Assembly (NCBI GenBank): GCA_018436925.1
Contig: JAHDKI010000003.1
Coordinates: 1-64,000, forward strand
Reading direction: 5' to 3'
DNA from: Syntrophaceae bacterium
GTDB lineage: Bacteria > Desulfobacterota > Syntrophia > Syntrophales > Smithellaceae
Length of the DNA stretch: 64,000 bases
Both the position numbers and the translations under genes were made by a program. Numbering within the stretch: position 1 is the first letter of the stretch; each line of letters begins with the position of its first letter. The notes under the pieces are model-generated. The model saw nothing but the letters and a program-made list of their open reading frames with translations. It made no database searches and was not told where the DNA came from. Positions 36,734 through 47,575 of the stretch are shown one piece after another.

Positions 36734-39700
36734 TCACTCCGTATTCAGACGCAGATCCCTCCAGAACATCAGGTTGGTGCGGTTTAAATCAGCGATGTCC
36801 GGCGTTTGCAATTTTTTCGTGTGAGACTCTCCGCCCGATGAGCTGGTTGATGCATAAATATCCGTACCCCCGCCAGGACGAAGAGATACGATGGGAGAAG
36901 TCGGAAGGCCGGCGCCTATTTCCTGTGCTCTTATAGGTTCTCCGGTTTCTTTATTCGTGAACTTTCCCGCCCCCGTTACGTAATTCACCGCATAGAGCAT
37001 CGCTTTTCCTGATTTTTCACATAGCGAGGTGGATTGATCCGGCACATAGGTCGTAAAATAAACCACGCCCCGGAACACGGTCGGATCGGCAAGCATCTTC
37101 TCGCCGGACCCCGTATTGAGCGTAATGACCCAACCGTTGTCGGTGGGATCGTAAACGCTGCTTTCGGAGGACAAAGTGGTCAGATCGCTGGCCGTCCACG
37201 TTGTATCCCGGTCGTTGTCTTTGATGGCAAAGAAGTAGTCCGTAGCGGTAGCCTGCCTCGGATTCATAATGTCGCCGGTTCCGAAGTACACCCAGAGGTT
37301 ACCCGCCTTGTCTTTCGCGACGGTGGGGGATGTATAGATCGATCCTTTCACCGTTGAAGAGGCGTTAAACAGCTTCTTCCCCGTCCACGACACGCTGGCG
37401 GTGGCGGCGTTATAATCAAACCGGAACCGCCACATATTCCCTCCTAAATCTCCCGCATAGACGGTATCGATAAACCCGTCGTTGTTCGTATCCACGATGG
37501 CAGGCGGGCCCGCCAGGTCGGTGGTCATGCCCGTGTCATTGGCATAGGTGAATCGCCACAGAATATTGCCGGTTTTCATGTCGATCACAAAAAACCCCTT
37601 GCCTATGGTGTTGCTTACCGCTGGCGGTTTATGCTCGATGCCGGAATAACCGCCGCCGATAAAGCCCACCCAGATCTCATGCCCGGAAGCATTTTGAATG
37701 CGGCCGATGCCCATCCTGCTCCAAGGCTCGCCGAAATAGGGTCCGTCCGTCGAGGACAACCCTGTCAGGGTTTTCCCCTGAATGCCCCATTTATAGGCGG
37801 GATTGAGCGTATCGGTAATATCGAGCGCATAATAGCCGCAATAATAGGGATTGGTCGCGCTGTAGGTTGAAGAAAATCCGGATTCGCAGGTGGAAGATGA
37901 GCTCCACAAGGTATTGCGTCCGCCTTGCCGGAGAGCGAAAACCATATACGTGTACCAATCCGCGGCATCTTTATCCGTTCCGTTCGACGCGGTAACAGGC
38001 AGCCAGACGTCACTTGCCGAAATCGGCCCGTCCACAAACGGCGTATGCTCCAGGCCCGACGGAATCGGGCTGTGCGTGTTATGAGCGAACTTTTTGAGAT
38101 TCGGCAGGAGATTCGGCGGAATAAAGCTCCAGACCTCGGCTCCGTCCGTGGTGCGGAAAGCGTGCATCTGGCCGTCGTTGGCGCCGATCACGACAATTCT
38201 TTTGCCATATCCTGCGCCTTCCGTCGTTGTGCGAAGATGATTCGCGCGGAACGTCTCGTAGGCTCTCGTCGGATTGGCAACTGTGGTGACCTCCACCTGA
38301 TCGGTGTAATCGTAGGAAGGCGTGCCGATCGTTCGAGGCGAAGAATGGAAAATATCGCCCAACTTCCAGCCTTTATTGACATAATCGGTGTCCAGCTCTC
38401 CGTTGCGGATGAAATTGACCACCAGATCCCGATGCGTGTCGTCGGCGACGTCTAAATCCGTTGCTGTAATGTTGGTGGTGTTAAAGTCCGTTTTGGCGCC
38501 GCTTTTGAGTGTCCAGATCGTCCGGGAGGCGGTTCTGGCCTGCAGAATCTTGCCCGCATCCCAGTTGTAGCTTAGCGCCACATTGCCGTCTTCTTCGATG
38601 GTAAATTGCCGCAGATAGCCCAGCCAGAAAGGTTCCATCGTACTTTCGGGATAAGGCAGAAAGGACGCTTCATAAAGGTAGTTTTCATCCTTCACACGGG
38701 AGGCGGAAACCGACGCCGTGGAAAAAGTAAAAGACCGGTTCATCATGCTTTCAAAAACGTCGTTCAACGCCTTCTTGAGCTCATCGAGATCATTGGCATA
38801 GTAGGCTTTTCCGTCAACAGCCGTGCCGCCCGCAACCGCCAGAGCGTCCAGATAGGGGCGAGCGTTTTCCGTCATGGACAGACCAATGACATAGGTCTGA
38901 ATATCAAAGGTGTGATTCGTTCCTTCGATTTTATATGTCACATCCCGCAGTTCCTGAATGCGGGTTTTTGCTGTTTCAATTAATGTTTCAGCCGATCCGG
39001 CGCTGCCGTTTTCGTCGGTGCTGGGCAATCCGTCCGTCACATAGACGATGAAATTCTTCTGGCACCAGTCCTGGATGGGGCTTGTATTGCTGGTTCCGCT
39101 TTTGTAGTCTTTTTCTCCCAGATAATAATTTTTCGCCGACCGCAGTGTGCCGGGCATGGGCGTCAAGCCGGCGTTGAGAATATGCGAGCAGGAATTGCCT
39201 GAACCGGAAGCGCAGGTCATGTATCCCGACTCGTCGCCTTCCTTGGTCGCTAATTTTGCGAGCAAATTCGACTTGTGCGAGCTGTTCTTCGGGTAATCCA
39301 GGCATTCAAGATGCCGATACCCTCCGCCCGGCGATGAATTGGCAAACCAGGTTTGGCCGCTATAATACCATTGCATACGTCTGCCGTAGTCATAAAATCC
39401 CAGCGCAAAGTCTTCATCGGTCGGTTCGAAAGGGCCTGACAGTCCAGGAATACTATATCCTGTGCCGTCATCTAATGAATTCGTTTTTGAATAATAGCAA
39501 TTATAAGAATCCCATGTCTTCCCCTCATTTGGGCTATATGTTTCGGAGTAGCAAAATTGATTGCCAAAAGATGATGAGGCATAAAAGGTTCCTGGTACTT
39601 TATAGTAAAAATAGTTTCCCGAATTAGTAACGTTTTCGAGACGATTCACCTTAGGATAAATTAAATTGCAGTATCGACTTCTTTGTTCACTCCCAACAGC

Positions 39701-40219
39701 ATAATTAGTGATAATAGAATCCCTATACGTAGCATCAAAATTGGGGTTTAAGCTCTCGCAGCCGCTTTGGCATATTGCCTGTGATGCCACACTACCAGTG
39801 GCACAATAATCCTGACAGGCCTCAAGAATTTCCGCATCATCGGTTGGACAGTAGGATTTAAGTTCATAAGAAATAAAATAATTGGCCGCATGCAATCTGT
39901 ATTTGCTGACACTTGGCAATCTGTAGGTCATCAGGCCGATGCGCATGTAATTGACATACCGTTCAATCACATCCTGGGCCGCTTTGCGGCCGATGACGGA
40001 GCGGCTCTGCGGCGAAAAAGATCCCACGGCATTGCCTGAATCATCTTGGTCCATACTGTTGGAGTTATCGAGAATGAACAAAACGTTCGGGTTGACTTTA
40101 ACAAAAAGGTCCTCTTCACCGGCCGCCTGCGCTGAGCCGACCGGCAAAAGCACAGTGACAAGCGCGATCAATCCGGCAACCTGCAATGCTTTCCATTTGG
40201 ATATACGACACATAAGCAC
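36734..40219 (-). CDS. pilY1: PilY1-like type IV pilus adhesin/assembly protein
   Basis: A 1161-residue exported protein. Signal peptide (hydrophobic GLIALVTVLLPVGSAQA, cleavage near 32). The N-terminal von Willebrand A-like part has a degenerate metal site NVLFILDNSNSMDQDDSG, with cysteine-rich inserts (about 120-190). The C-terminal half is the PilY1 beta-propeller: GKRIVVIGANDGQMHAFRTT, EVWSFIPPNLLPNL, and the calcium loop DTNNDGFID within VDTNNDGFIDTVYAGDLGG. PilY1 primes the pilus with minor pilins and may act as tip adhesin. It is the last gene of the minor-pilin operon. The terminator follows. Confidence 0.93.
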   Translation of the reverse strand: MLMCRISKWKALQVAGLIALVTVLLPVGSAQAAGEEDLFVKVNPNVLFILDNSNSMDQDDSGNAVGSFSPQSRSVIGRKAAQDVIERYVNYMRIGLMTYRLPSVSKYRLHAANYFISYELKSYCPTDDAEILEACQDYCATGSVASQAICQSGCESLNPNFDATYRDSIITNYAVGSEQRSRYCNLIYPKVNRLENVTNSGNYFYYKVPGTFYASSSFGNQFCYSETYSPNEGKTWDSYNCYYSKTNSLDDGTGYSIPGLSGPFEPTDEDFALGFYDYGRRMQWYYSGQTWFANSSPGGGYRHLECLDYPKNSSHKSNLLAKLATKEGDESGYMTCASGSGNSCSHILNAGLTPMPGTLRSAKNYYLGEKDYKSGTSNTSPIQDWCQKNFIVYVTDGLPSTDENGSAGSAETLIETAKTRIQELRDVTYKIEGTNHTFDIQTYVIGLSMTENARPYLDALAVAGGTAVDGKAYYANDLDELKKALNDVFESMMNRSFTFSTASVSASRVKDENYLYEASFLPYPESTMEPFWLGYLRQFTIEEDGNVALSYNWDAGKILQARTASRTIWTLKSGAKTDFNTTNITATDLDVADDTHRDLVVNFIRNGELDTDYVNKGWKLGDIFHSSPRTIGTPSYDYTDQVEVTTVANPTRAYETFRANHLRTTTEGAGYGKRIVVIGANDGQMHAFRTTDGAEVWSFIPPNLLPNLKKFAHNTHSPIPSGLEHTPFVDGPISASDVWLPVTASNGTDKDAADWYTYMVFALRQGGRNTLWSSSSTCESGFSSTYSATNPYYCGYYALDITDTLNPAYKWGIQGKTLTGLSSTDGPYFGEPWSRMGIGRIQNASGHEIWVGFIGGGYSGIEHKPPAVSNTIGKGFFVIDMKTGNILWRFTYANDTGMTTDLAGPPAIVDTNNDGFIDTVYAGDLGGNMWRFRFDYNAATASVSWTGKKLFNASSTVKGSIYTSPTVAKDKAGNLWVYFGTGDIMNPRQATATDYFFAIKDNDRDTTWTASDLTTLSSESSVYDPTDNGWVITLNTGSGEKMLADPTVFRGVVYFTTYVPDQSTSLCEKSGKAMLYAVNYVTGAGKFTNKETGEPIRAQEIGAGLPTSPIVSLRPGGGTDIYASTSSSGGESHTKKLQTPDIADLNRTNLMFWRDLRLNTE

Positions 40220-40244: not shown

Positions 40245-40679
40245 TTAACGCAAACGAAAGACGACTTCCGTCAATCGGCCGTCCACAAACGTCATTTCCG
40301 CGATTCGAATTCCCAGGCGCTTGGATTTTTCCTTTTCCTTAGCCTTCGCTCGCAACTTTTTCTTTTTCGTCAAATCGACAACATGAACTCCCGCAAGGGA
40401 ATATTTTTCGCCGCTTGTCAGAATCAAGGTTTTCCCGTCGAAAGCTTTCACGCCGGCGGTAATGCTCTGAACCGCCGCGCCGGAGGAGCTCGCTCCTGAG
40501 CCACTCGTTTCGCCCACCGCGGTAAGAGCGAGCGCCCTGGACCAATCCGGAACGGCCGGCGACGAGGGTTGATCATAAGATCTTCCCTGCCCGCTTGAGG
40601 CCTGGACGGCTGAGATGAAAAACAATCCTCCTGAAAACAGAATCGTCCCGAAAACGACCATCAAAACCGCTTTTTTCAT
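40245..40679 (-). CDS. Exported protein of the minor-pilin operon, unknown
   Basis: A 144-residue protein with a signal peptide (KKAVLMVVFGTILFSGGLFF, cleavage near 27). The rest is a Ser/Gly-rich linker, then a small beta-rich part VKAFDGKTLILTSGEKYSLAGVHVVDLT (quoted for position: about 75-102), a lysine-rich stretch (KKKKLRAKAKEKEKSKR) and a last strand MTFVDGRLTEVVF. I do not recognise the family. AGGAGG nine bases before the ATG at 40679 sets the start. It sits 25 bp upstream of pilY1, between it and the PilX-like gene, where a PilE-type or calcium-related helper is found in other species. A helper for PilY1 is inference. Confidence 0.75.
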   Translation of the reverse strand: MKKAVLMVVFGTILFSGGLFFISAVQASSGQGRSYDQPSSPAVPDWSRALALTAVGETSGSGASSSGAAVQSITAGVKAFDGKTLILTSGEKYSLAGVHVVDLTKKKKLRAKAKEKEKSKRLGIRIAEMTFVDGRLTEVVFRLR

Positions 40680-40756
40680 TTTTAATGCCTCCTGCCGCGT
40701 GGTGCGGCAATGTCTGATCGATTCAAAATCGATCATTTTCCTCATGCATGAAATAA

Positions 40757-41233
40757 TTACTGGTAAGACGGCGTGCTGGGCACTTCTCCATGCCGCAGAC
40801 CGACATCCAACCGAACCAGGGATCCGTGGCTTGCATCGCGCCCCGTCACCACGGAGTTGAATACGTTAAACGACCAACTTTTGCCGCCTTCAATGCTGGA
40901 ACCGGTGGCGGAAACCGACGGAATGTTCGGATCCGACACCGGCTTGGTCACAGAATAGGTCATTTTCGGATCGTTGGCTGCGTCAATTTTCACATTCGTC
41001 AAGGCATTCATCGACGTGTCAAAAACGAGGCATAAGTCATGAACTCCGGCCTCCGCGGCGGAAAGCGCCTTTCTTTCTCCATACAGCCGCGACGTGATTT
41101 TCAGATCATCCGACGTGACGGTGAGAGCAAAAAAGCCCACAGCCATTAAAATCATCATCGCGATCAAAGCTGCGATCAAGACAAATCCCTTTTCGGAGCT
41201 CGCACCTGTTTTTTTCTTACGGACTAAGCACAT
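40757..41233 (-). CDS. pilX: Minor pilin assembly protein, PilX-like
   Basis: A 158-residue protein with the PilX N terminus: short basic lead, then SEKGFVLIAALIAMMILMAVGFF, where cleavage would follow the Gly (EKG|F), and LSAAEAGVHD at about 60, a typical PilX feature. The remaining globular domain is short. It overlaps the PilW-like gene by 17 bp. Prepilin peptidase PilD, encoded 1.8 kb upstream, would process it. Confidence 0.85.
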   Translation of the reverse strand: MCLVRKKKTGASSEKGFVLIAALIAMMILMAVGFFALTVTSDDLKITSRLYGERKALSAAEAGVHDLCLVFDTSMNALTNVKIDAANDPKMTYSVTKPVSDPNIPSVSATGSSIEGGKSWSFNVFNSVVTGRDASHGSLVRLDVGLRHGEVPSTPSYQ

Positions 41234-41942
41234 GATTTTTCACCAAAACATCGGTTGTGTACGTTATCGGACTGACTTCAAATTGACTGCCCTGCTTTTC
41301 AACTTTCGCGACAATCGTAATGCGAATGCGCCGAATCAGCGGAATATTCGTATTGGGGGCGGATTTGACCACCGCCGAAATGTCCTGGTCCGCTTCGTTG
41401 TAATAGGTAAACATCGGCGACGTTGACGGATTGACGACCAGCGTAGACGACCCGGCGCCGCCTAGAATAGTCTGATTGCCGCCGCAATTGACATTACGGA
41501 TAATTCCCTGGTTGTTCAGATTGTAGTAAATATACTCGTTGGCGGCGGCTTTCGTCGGATCGGCCGGGTCCGGGCCGATGATATTGTCCGCATTTAAGTC
41601 CATGGCAATGAGGATCTCGTTATCCCCCGCCAGTTGAATGCCTTTCCGGGCCGTGACCGCCGCCGCAAGCCCCATCTGGGTGCAGGCGGGAACGGACGCC
41701 GCCGATGGGACAGTCGCCCACACAGCGCTATTGTTTCTTCGGTTGAAGGAGGCCATCCGTATTTCCATCGCCATCAGATTCATAACGGCGCGGGTGTCCT
41801 GCTGAGTCAGCGTCTTGCGGTCGATGCTGGAGGAGGATTGCTGGGCTGTATTCATAACGCCGTAAACGGCAGCCATAATGATCAACCCCACCGCAATGGC
41901 GATAAGCAGTTCAACCAGTGTAAAGCCTTTACTTTTCATCAC
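41217..41942 (-). CDS. pilW: Minor pilin, PilW-like
   Basis: A 241-residue prepilin. Leader MMKSKG with cleavage before FTLVELLIAIAVGLIIMAAV, which carries the conserved Glu5. The following QQDTRAVMNLMAMEIRMASF matches PilW. The large C-terminal domain with Asn/Asp-rich parts is normal for the family. It overlaps pilV by four bases. Confidence 0.88.
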   Translation of the reverse strand: MMKSKGFTLVELLIAIAVGLIIMAAVYGVMNTAQQSSSSIDRKTLTQQDTRAVMNLMAMEIRMASFNRRNNSAVWATVPSAASVPACTQMGLAAAVTARKGIQLAGDNEILIAMDLNADNIIGPDPADPTKAAANEYIYYNLNNQGIIRNVNCGGNQTILGGAGSSTLVVNPSTSPMFTYYNEADQDISAVVKSAPNTNIPLIRRIRITIVAKVEKQGSQFEVSPITYTTDVLVKNHVLSP

Positions 41943-42337
41943 AGGTTATCCTCGCTGTTAAAACCCATCTGACGCGTCACGATCATGCTGCTGGAGACCC
42001 CCCGGCTATTTCTCGGCCAGGTTACCCGCACATTCACCAGCCATTTGTTGGTTGACACTTCGGCCTGGGTTGTCGTCACGAAGTATGAAAACGATCCGGA
42101 CGACACTTCTTCGTTCGTTTTTGCGGTGGGTTCTTGTCCCCGCATGATGGTATTCTCCAGCGATTCCAACTCCGTTTGAAGGATCCCGATCGCTCTGCCC
42201 ATGCTATCGGACTTGCCTGCCGACTGCCAGGAAACGGATTGCATGGTCATCAACCCGACGATGACGGCCACCGTCAGAAAAGCCGCGATCATGGATTCGA
42301 CGAGCGTGATGCCTTTTTCATCCCGTATAATCAACAC
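41939..42337 (-). CDS. pilV: Minor pilin, PilV-like
   Basis: A 132-residue prepilin. Cleavage site EKG|ITLVESMIAAFLTVAVIVG with Glu5 in VES, as in PilV. The globular part is short. It overlaps fimT by 20 bp and pilW by four bases, so translation is coupled along the operon. Confidence 0.87.
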   Translation of the reverse strand: MLIIRDEKGITLVESMIAAFLTVAVIVGLMTMQSVSWQSAGKSDSMGRAIGILQTELESLENTIMRGQEPTAKTNEEVSSGSFSYFVTTTQAEVSTNKWLVNVRVTWPRNSRGVSSSMIVTRQMGFNSEDNL

Positions 42338-42791
42338 GAACCCTCCCCGTTATGGTCACTGTGATGGTTGCCACTCTGGGGGTTTTCGAATGGCCAAGAA
42401 CCAGCGCCCCCGCCGCCGTCGTCGTCCCGCGAGGCAGAAATGTCAACGCAGGAGGACTTCCGGAAAAAGTAGTCGATGAAAAGCTGATCAGAGAGCTCCC
42501 TCCGCCAAGCTTCCCTGTGGAAACGTTTTGCCATGTGGCGGAACCCAGAGGAAGCCTGGAGACCGTGTACTGACTTCCCGCAAAGTTAAATGAAATCCGG
42601 TACTGAATATTTTCAGCAATCGCCCTCTGACGGCATAAATTCATTTCCGCACTGATGTCGCGCGCCGCCTCACGCAAATTGACATTATGCCGGTACTGAA
42701 ATAAATTCGGCCCCGCGATCCCCAGCACGATGCCCAGAATCGCAATGACGATGAGAAGCTCAATTAAACTGAATCCGTTTTTTTTGACCAT
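42318..42791 (-). CDS. fimT: Minor pilin, FimT/GspH-like
   Basis: A 157-residue prepilin heading the operon. Leader VKKNG with cleavage before FSLIELLIVIAILGIVLGIA; then AARDISAEMNLCRQRAIAEN, the typical GspH/FimT helix end. Of the group it is the one most likely to bind DNA in competent bacteria, but this is not shown here. A sigma-54 site is found 47-62 bp upstream. Confidence 0.88.
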   Translation of the reverse strand: MVKKNGFSLIELLIVIAILGIVLGIAGPNLFQYRHNVNLREAARDISAEMNLCRQRAIAENIQYRISFNFAGSQYTVSRLPLGSATWQNVSTGKLGGGSSLISFSSTTFSGSPPALTFLPRGTTTAAGALVLGHSKTPRVATITVTITGRVRVDYTG

Positions 42792-42837: not shown

Positions 42838-42853
42838 AGCAAACCTCATGCCA
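42838..42853 (-). promoter_or_regulatory. Sigma-54 promoter of the minor-pilin operon
   Basis: On the reverse strand TGGCATG-AGGT-TTGCT matches the consensus TGGCACG-N4-TTGCW with one mismatch and has exact GG/GC (-24/-12) spacing. A start of transcription near 42828 would give a 37-base leader before fimT. Type IV pilus genes are classical sigma-54 targets. No enhancer-binding protein gene is in the window. Confidence 0.75.
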
Positions 42854-43027: not shown

Positions 43028-43789
43028 CTAGGGCCCCAAAAGCCAAAGCCGCATGAACGCGTCTCCCAGAAAAATGTAGGCAACCGCCGCGATGGACAAA
43101 AACGGGCCGAAGGGAACCGCGTACTTCATGTCCTGCTTTTTGACGATCATAGCGAGAATCCCAATGATTGCGCCGGTAAACGAACTGACGAGCAGAATGA
43201 AAATGAGCGCTTTCCAGCCGAAAAAACCGCCGATCATAGCCAGAAGTTTCACATCGCCTCCGCCCATGCCTTCGCGCTTCGTCACAAACTCATAAATAAA
43301 GGCAATCAACCATAAAATACCGCCGCCGATCAGCAAACCGATGAGCGCCTCAAGCCAGGGCACTTTCACGATGAACACCGCCGCGAGAAAGAAAATCGGG
43401 ATGCCCGGCAGCGACAGAACATCGGGAATGATCTGATGATCGATATCGATAAAGGTAATGGTGATTAAAACGGCGGTGAAAAGAAAGAAAACGGCAAATT
43501 CAAGCGTCAAGCCGAATTGGATGAACAAAAGCAGGGTCAGGATCGCTGTAATGAGTTCGACAAGTGGATAGCGCCAGGAAATGGCGCCGCCGCAGTCCCG
43601 GCATTTCGCGCGCAGGATCAAAAAACTGAAAATGGGAATGTTGTCGTAAAAGCGGATCGGGTGCTGGCAGTGGGGGCATCTCGAAAGCGGCTTCACGATG
43701 GATTCTTTTGCCGGAATGCGAAAGATGCAGACGTTCAAGAAACTGCCGACGGCAGCCCCGAAAATAAAAGCCAACACATAGAGGAGCAT
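43028..43789 (-). CDS. pilD: Prepilin peptidase / N-methyltransferase
   Basis: A 253-residue inner-membrane aspartyl protease that cuts and methylates prepilins. It has the N-terminal methylase-associated cysteine pairs CPHCQHPI and CRDCGG, the two catalytic aspartates in TFIDIDHQIIPD and GGGDVKLLAMIGG, and about eight hydrophobic segments. All signatures are intact. It lies just upstream of the minor pilins it should process, but is separately controlled by the promoter and riboswitch at 43860-43992. Confidence 0.95.
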   Translation of the reverse strand: MLLYVLAFIFGAAVGSFLNVCIFRIPAKESIVKPLSRCPHCQHPIRFYDNIPIFSFLILRAKCRDCGGAISWRYPLVELITAILTLLLFIQFGLTLEFAVFFLFTAVLITITFIDIDHQIIPDVLSLPGIPIFFLAAVFIVKVPWLEALIGLLIGGGILWLIAFIYEFVTKREGMGGGDVKLLAMIGGFFGWKALIFILLVSSFTGAIIGILAMIVKKQDMKYAVPFGPFLSIAAVAYIFLGDAFMRLWLLGP

Positions 43790-43859
43790 TTCCGGTTCTC
43801 TTTCGCTTCTGAAATATTGTTTTCCGGCGGTATTTTTTAGGATTGCTGGACTTTCTTTT

Positions 43860-43958
43860 GACCGCCCGGCAGTCCTGCCGCCCTATCTTGTCTCAAGACT
43901 TAGGCCAGTAACTTTGCGTCCCGCCCTTTCAGACGGTTTGCCCTGAATCGTGCTTTGA
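43860..43958 (-). promoter_or_regulatory. Cyclic di-GMP-I (GEMM) riboswitch before pilD
   Basis: On the reverse strand the conserved blocks of the GEMM-I aptamer occur in order: GCACGATTC, AGGGCAAACC (43935-43944), GAAA tetraloop in CTGAAAGGGC, GGGACGCAAAG (inside 43912-43930), GGCCTAA (43899-43906), and the second stem GGCAGGACTGCC (43862-43879). This is the binding site of the bacterial second messenger c-di-GMP, flanked by a promoter on one side and pilD 70 bp on the other. A later ACCGCC can pair with GGCGGT of the aptamer 3' side, a possible switch. Whether it prefers c-di-GMP or cGAMP cannot be proved by eye. Confidence 0.88.
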
Positions 43959-43964
43959 GGCGAA

Positions 43965-43992
43965 ATTCTACTCTTTTTTCGTCAGAAGTCAA
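43965..43992 (-). promoter_or_regulatory. Sigma-70 promoter of riboswitch-pilD
   Basis: On the reverse strand TTGACT (43987-43992), a 16-base spacer and TAGAAT (43965-43970). The predicted transcription start, about 43958, falls exactly at the beginning of the GEMM aptamer. Confidence 0.75.
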
Positions 43993-46976: not shown

Positions 46977-47071
46977 GATTTCTCCGTTGCAAATTGCCTA
47001 TACATATTATAGATGGATTCGGGCCGTCGCCGGTCCGCGATCTGCGTGAAAACTTAGAGGTGGTCACACAA

Positions 47072-47575
47072 ATGCCGTGGTACGCCGTTCACACCAAGAG
47101 CCGCCATGAATACAAAGCCCGGACAAGCCTTCTCCAGAAAAGCCTGACGGCTTATCTACCTGAGATGGAAGTGTGGAGCAAGCGAAAAGACCGGCGCAAA
47201 AAAATCACCGTCCCCCTTTTTCCCGGTTATCTTTTCGTTGAGGTTGACGCGCTCGACAATCATGTGAAGCTCGCGATTCTCAAAACAGTCGGCGTGGTGA
47301 AGATCCTGGGCAAAAAGGAAAACGCCGAACCCATCGCGGTTCCAGACGACAAGATTGAAGCCATCCGGCGTCTTCTGGAAAAGAAGGCGGAGGTTTTCAC
47401 CTTCCAGTACCCGAAAGAGGGCCAGGCAGCTAAAATCATCAACGGTCCTTTCGCCGGCATTGAGGGCACGGTCGTCAAGTGCGACGTGGAGAAGGAAATT
47501 TTTGTGGTTTCGATCGACCTGCTGCAGCGCTCCGTCGCCATTAAGCTCGAAGGCTTTCAGATCAGCAAAATCTAG
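47072..47575 (+). CDS. NusG paralogue (UpxY/LoaP/RfaH-like antiterminator)
   Basis: A 167-residue NusG-family protein. The NGN domain (1-105) has WYAVHTKSRHEYKARTSL and VPLFPGYLFVEVD; a KOW domain follows with AAKIINGPFAGIEGTVV. It is shorter and more divergent than housekeeping NusG and is not next to secE/rplK, so it is a specialised paralogue of the kind that aids transcription of long operons such as polysaccharide clusters. The start at 47072 is set by AGAGGTGG. Its target is unknown; polysaccharide-precursor genes occur at 26 and 54-57 kb. Confidence 0.83.
   Translation: MPWYAVHTKSRHEYKARTSLLQKSLTAYLPEMEVWSKRKDRRKKITVPLFPGYLFVEVDALDNHVKLAILKTVGVVKILGKKENAEPIAVPDDKIEAIRRLLEKKAEVFTFQYPKEGQAAKIINGPFAGIEGTVVKCDVEKEIFVVSIDLLQRSVAIKLEGFQISKI

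Follow-up and report, generated by a model that had tools for sequence, protein, structure and literature searches.

Motors, PilZ-type proteins and pilin transcripts are known routes by which cyclic di-GMP affects pili, and the pili of syntrophic Smithella-like bacteria have been discussed in connection with cell contact and electron transfer. In G. sulfurreducens, 12 of the 17 GEMM-I/Ib riboswitches sense cGAMP, and among GGDEF proteins a serine marks the cGAMP synthases (PMC8835794). Structures of cGAMP aptamers carry an A (A14) where Vc2 has G20, a column equivalence taken here from our own alignment, and the G20A change lets a c-di-GMP aptamer accept cGAMP (PMC6274999, PMC7288161). The stretch analysed here, a 64,000-nucleotide contig segment of a Syntrophaceae bacterium of the Smithellaceae (hereafter the window), contains a genuine GEMM-I riboswitch, the aptamer of which is itself ordinary; the interest lies in its target, the prepilin peptidase gene pilD. 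Promoter, aptamer and pilD all lie on the minus strand, as follows:

43965..43992, minus strand: sigma-70-like promoter (-35 TTGACT at 43992-43987, 16-nt spacer, -10 TAGAAT at 43970-43965)
43865..43952, minus strand: c-di-GMP-I (GEMM-I) aptamer, RF01051, 73.5 bits
43839..43876, minus strand: conserved anti-aptamer hairpin AGGA-c-UGC-c-GGGC...GUCC-a-GCA-a-UCCU, from free folds, covariation and complementarity versus shuffles
43028..43789, minus strand: pilD, prepilin peptidase of 253 aa with CxxC...CxxC and GGGD (GxGD) motifs

An earlier note on this DNA had recognised the aptamer from its conserved blocks, which are indeed all present and in order (AGGGCAAACC, GGGACGCAAAG and GGCCTAA), and had proposed a search with the RF01051 covariance model. 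That search (cmscan) placed the aptamer at 43952-43865 on the minus strand with 73.5 bits (E 1.5e-12), above the gathering cut-off of 35 bits, and the match spans the full model (1-87) without broken pairs. No other GEMM-I was found when the 3.52 Mb genome was searched with RF01051. Consistent with membership in the c-di-GMP-I riboswitches, the aptamer lies between a promoter-like site and a protein-coding gene of the same strand, within the 5' leader of that gene. By comparison with GCUUG/CGGGC of relatives, P1 probably reaches G43953/C43864 as GCACG/CGGGC with one A.G mismatch, an assignment made by hand where the fold script chose GCCG/CGGC. The GNRA tetraloop and the ligand-contact bases G20, A47 and C92 are conserved, in Vc2 numbering as aligned by us to the window.

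Taken alone, the TTGACT-16-TAGAAT site, with 10 of 12 consensus matches, is at chance level (1 found versus 1.1 expected). TTGAC and a -10-like hexamer recur at this position in 31 of the 33 pilD-linked leaders, for which ~1.5 TTGAC words would be expected, and the conserved site ends 4-13 nt before the aptamer. Conservation thus supports the sigma-70 promoter of the earlier note but not its start exactly at the first base of the aptamer: in the window the aptamer begins 12 nt past the -10 hexamer, which puts the predicted transcript start ~2-6 nt upstream of it. Likewise, pilD does lie directly downstream, but at 75 nt rather than 70 bp after the aptamer; this spacing is usually 61-102 nt among the 33 leaders read. 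One leader (L033, 1862-2239) carries an insert of ~300 bp between aptamer and pilD, giving 378 nt instead of about 75.

PilD belongs to the A24 prepilin peptidases, with both the N-terminal (A24_N_bact, 125.7 bits) and the catalytic domain (Peptidase_A24, 86 bits) and GGGD in its translation; its nearest named relatives come from Smithella, Smithellaceae and Syntrophaceae genomes. No second A24 peptidase was detected in the genome, which encodes at least 14 N_methyl prepilin-like proteins, including the type II secretion (T2SS) protein GspG (103 bits versus a cut-off of 88.85, on the first 80 residues), located near a GspF-like frame. Prepilins, GspG among them, depend on an A24-type prepilin peptidase. 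If pilD is regulated by c-di-GMP, one signal would set the supply of every dependent filament and pseudopilus.

To follow the arrangement among relatives, the genome itself and one set of 58 relatives were searched for both GEMM-I aptamers and A24 peptidases, and the results were compared. A GEMM-I precedes pilD in 23 of the 30 same-family genomes with an A24 match and in none of the 21 genomes that belong to other Syntrophales families, so that the promoter-aptamer-pilD arrangement described earlier is conserved across the family, as is its promoter-like site. In the remaining 7 family genomes the peptidase is present and no GEMM-I was detected before its gene, and in 11 genomes the pilD-linked aptamer is the sole GEMM-I found. 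Among 148 genomes sampled from the phylum and compared by eye, the matches listed (150 GEMM-I) held no further GEMM-I-pilD case, and two Geobacter-related pilD loci (L084, L095) had no GEMM-I within the flanks read around both. No paper naming pilD together with GEMM was found in the literature searched; pilD is thus a lineage-conserved GEMM-I target and, as far as that literature shows, an undescribed one. G039 and G057, two genomes that belong to another family, have the aptamer downstream of pilD, and L030 has it ahead of fimT-pilV-pilW without an intervening pilD. The simplest reading of these sequences is that GEMM-I was linked to pilus genes earlier and that this link was extended to pilD in the Smithella family. 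Tandem GEMM-I, two or three in a row, were also seen (G014:C38:19004-19418, locus L010; G017:C166; G017:C179), and the tandem arrays of L010 and L005 precede genes for putative secreted proteins.

When 32 leaders are folded freely, the sequence GCAGRACUGCCGGGC at the aptamer's 3' end repeatedly pairs with a downstream GUCCAGCAAUYCUGC, forming a hairpin (GCAGGACUGCCGGGC...GUCCAGCAAUCCU) ~50 nt upstream of the pilD start codon that is mutually exclusive with P1 and the 3' strand of P3. In a sequence-only alignment, the hairpin pairs 75.6% of cells versus 33-49% when slid, and its complementarity beats that of shuffled downstream sequence (mean z -2.4). Its covariation score is 0.223 versus 0.176 +/- 0.012 in shuffles (0/500), which amounts to support and not proof, because related sequences can exceed such shuffles. 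The locus holds the kind of structure expected of an expression platform, one that excludes the aptamer, here with covariation. Without ligand, computed energies favour the hairpin fold over the aptamer-formed state by ~13 kcal/mol on average over the leaders, and by 20 kcal/mol in the window, on which the script imposed a poor P1; given this excess, switching would have to be kinetic. Similar strands also follow some GEMM-I at other genes (L008, L010), indicating that the platform is not specific to pilD. The leader of L066 (5902-5999) holds the anti-aptamer strand AAGTCGTCCAG in duplicate.

How the hairpin might act on pilD was judged from the same leaders. A transcription attenuator with an intrinsic terminator is rejected, since no U-tract follows the hairpin (0 of 20 tails with at least 5 U in 8) and no intrinsic terminator was found on the minus strand between aptamer and pilD. 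Alternatively, control could act on translation, if the ribosome binding site (RBS) were masked by the element ACCGCC or by the released downstream strand, a reading that we regard as rather unlikely. Sequence inspection does reveal CUGGA/UCCAG or GGGA/UCCC between the downstream strand and the RBS in a few relatives, and predicted RBS accessibility, free versus aptamer-formed, falls in 12 of 32 leaders; yet it rises in 6 (p 0.28), no conserved RBS masking was found in these 32, and complementarity between the RBS and the downstream strand is no better than in shuffled (mean z -0.33) or swapped leaders (-7.9 versus -8.1 kcal/mol). ACCGCC (43831-43826, minus strand), which the earlier note had proposed to pair with the 3' side of the aptamer as a switch near the RBS, can do so on paper, but it occurs in the window and not in the relatives' leaders, and the minimum-energy fold pairs the region otherwise; as a switch element it is rejected.

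The other questions to be weighed are which genes the riboswitch serves and which ligand it senses. Downstream of pilD, the window carries a set of minor-pilin genes, followed by argS after pilY1:

42839..42853, minus strand: sigma-54-like promoter TGGCATGAGGTTTGC upstream of fimT; rpoN present
42318..42791, minus strand: fimT/gspH-like minor pilin
41939..42337, minus strand: PilV-like minor pilin, from position and N-terminus, without family match
41217..41942, minus strand: PilW-like minor pilin, N_methyl
40757..41233, minus strand: PilX-like minor pilin, PilX_N slightly under the cut-off
40245..40745, minus strand: small secreted protein of the cluster, 166 aa, without family
36734..40219, minus strand: pilY1, type IV pilus tip adhesin-like protein, PF05567

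The riboswitch might head a long pilD-fimT-pilV-pilW-pilX-pilY1 operon in which minor pilins and tip adhesin are the main targets and pilD is a passenger. The gene order is conserved, and GEMM-I stands directly before minor pilins in the loci mentioned above (after pilD in G039 and G057, without pilD in L030); we regard this reading as less likely than not. Against it, the 236-nt pilD-fimT gap contains the sigma-54-type site TGGCATGAGGTTTGC, the genome has an RpoN gene, and such sites occur in 17 of 38 pilD-fimT gaps versus 0.014 expected from mononucleotide shuffles, a comparison in which the relatives are not independent. The sigma-54-like site is conserved in the gaps of L031-L074, and many relatives have in the gap an extra TTGACA...TAATAT site (TTGACA...CGTAATAT) as well, ~80-100 nt upstream of the sigma-54-like one; it is absent from the gap of the window. 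Since the minor pilins have their own sigma-54-like site, pilD looks separately controlled, and the sequence of the gap supports pilD as a target in its own right. Read-through from pilD into fimT is possible, and separate control and a shared operon may both be true. As to the ligand, the base of the window aptamer that corresponds to Vc2 position 20 is G and not the A20 of GEMM-Ib, which favours c-di-GMP over cGAMP, and its genome holds 13 GGDEF matches. That the aptamer is a GEMM-Ib sensing cGAMP, like many of those in Geobacter, is very improbable: two pilD-linked aptamers, and only these, carry A20 (L060/L022 and L043/L024), and one weak degenerate GGDEF encoded in the window's own genome shows the cGAMP-synthase serine, but the window has G20, and in the genomes of the A20 relatives the GGDEF matches carry the ordinary aspartate, with no Hypr-type serine. 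The cGAMP class was rejected for the window aptamer on these grounds. The degenerate GGDEF (L124, G000:C35:128156-128407) reads GS for GD, with a GGDDY motif, and resembles the cGAMP synthase GSU1937; the two A20 aptamers in genomes without a detectable Hypr GGDEF may reflect ligand drift.

We thus consider it highly probable that a c-di-GMP-I riboswitch in the pilD 5' leader, working through a competing hairpin, sets pilD output and with it pilin and pseudopilin maturation; ligand binding, regulation and the effect on pilins are inferred from sequence. Transcription would start a few bases before the aptamer, and c-di-GMP binding during synthesis of the leader would stabilise P1 and P3, whereas without ligand the downstream strand GUCCAGCAAUCCU would capture the 3' end of the aptamer in the anti-aptamer hairpin. 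The choice between the two would determine how much PilD, the one prepilin peptidase detected in the genome, is produced, and thereby how far type IV pilins and the pseudopilins of type II secretion mature. c-di-GMP promotes pilus functions elsewhere, and by this analogy activation of pilD is slightly favoured over repression. A bolder proposal, offered tentatively and as doubtful in its full form, is that in the Smithella family the sole prepilin peptidase is under a single c-di-GMP riboswitch, which so limits type IV pilin and T2SS pseudopilin maturation; its platform would use neither RBS masking nor intrinsic termination but some other route, such as RNA decay or Rho-dependent termination. 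Such control would offer a concrete, testable link from second messenger to pilus biogenesis in Smithella-like bacteria. Elsewhere in the window, a frame that looks NusG/RfaH-type (46994-47575, plus strand, TTG start) lies beside a divergent large oxidoreductase-like frame.

The closest known systems include the GEMM-I of L012, L030 and G057, which have the same aptamer and the same pilus gene set; unlike in the window, their aptamer lies after pilD or pilD is missing between aptamer and minor pilins. The GEMM-I/Ib riboswitches of Geobacter, numerous in that genus, share the aptamer fold but are mostly cGAMP sensors (PMC8835794). With Vc2 of Vibrio cholerae (RF01051) the window shares the full-length covariance match, the GAAA tetraloop, the G at position 20, the CGCAAAG block and the conserved C92-equivalent; it differs in its competing structure, an anti-aptamer hairpin without U-tract or clear RBS masking, and in its target gene, which is pilD.
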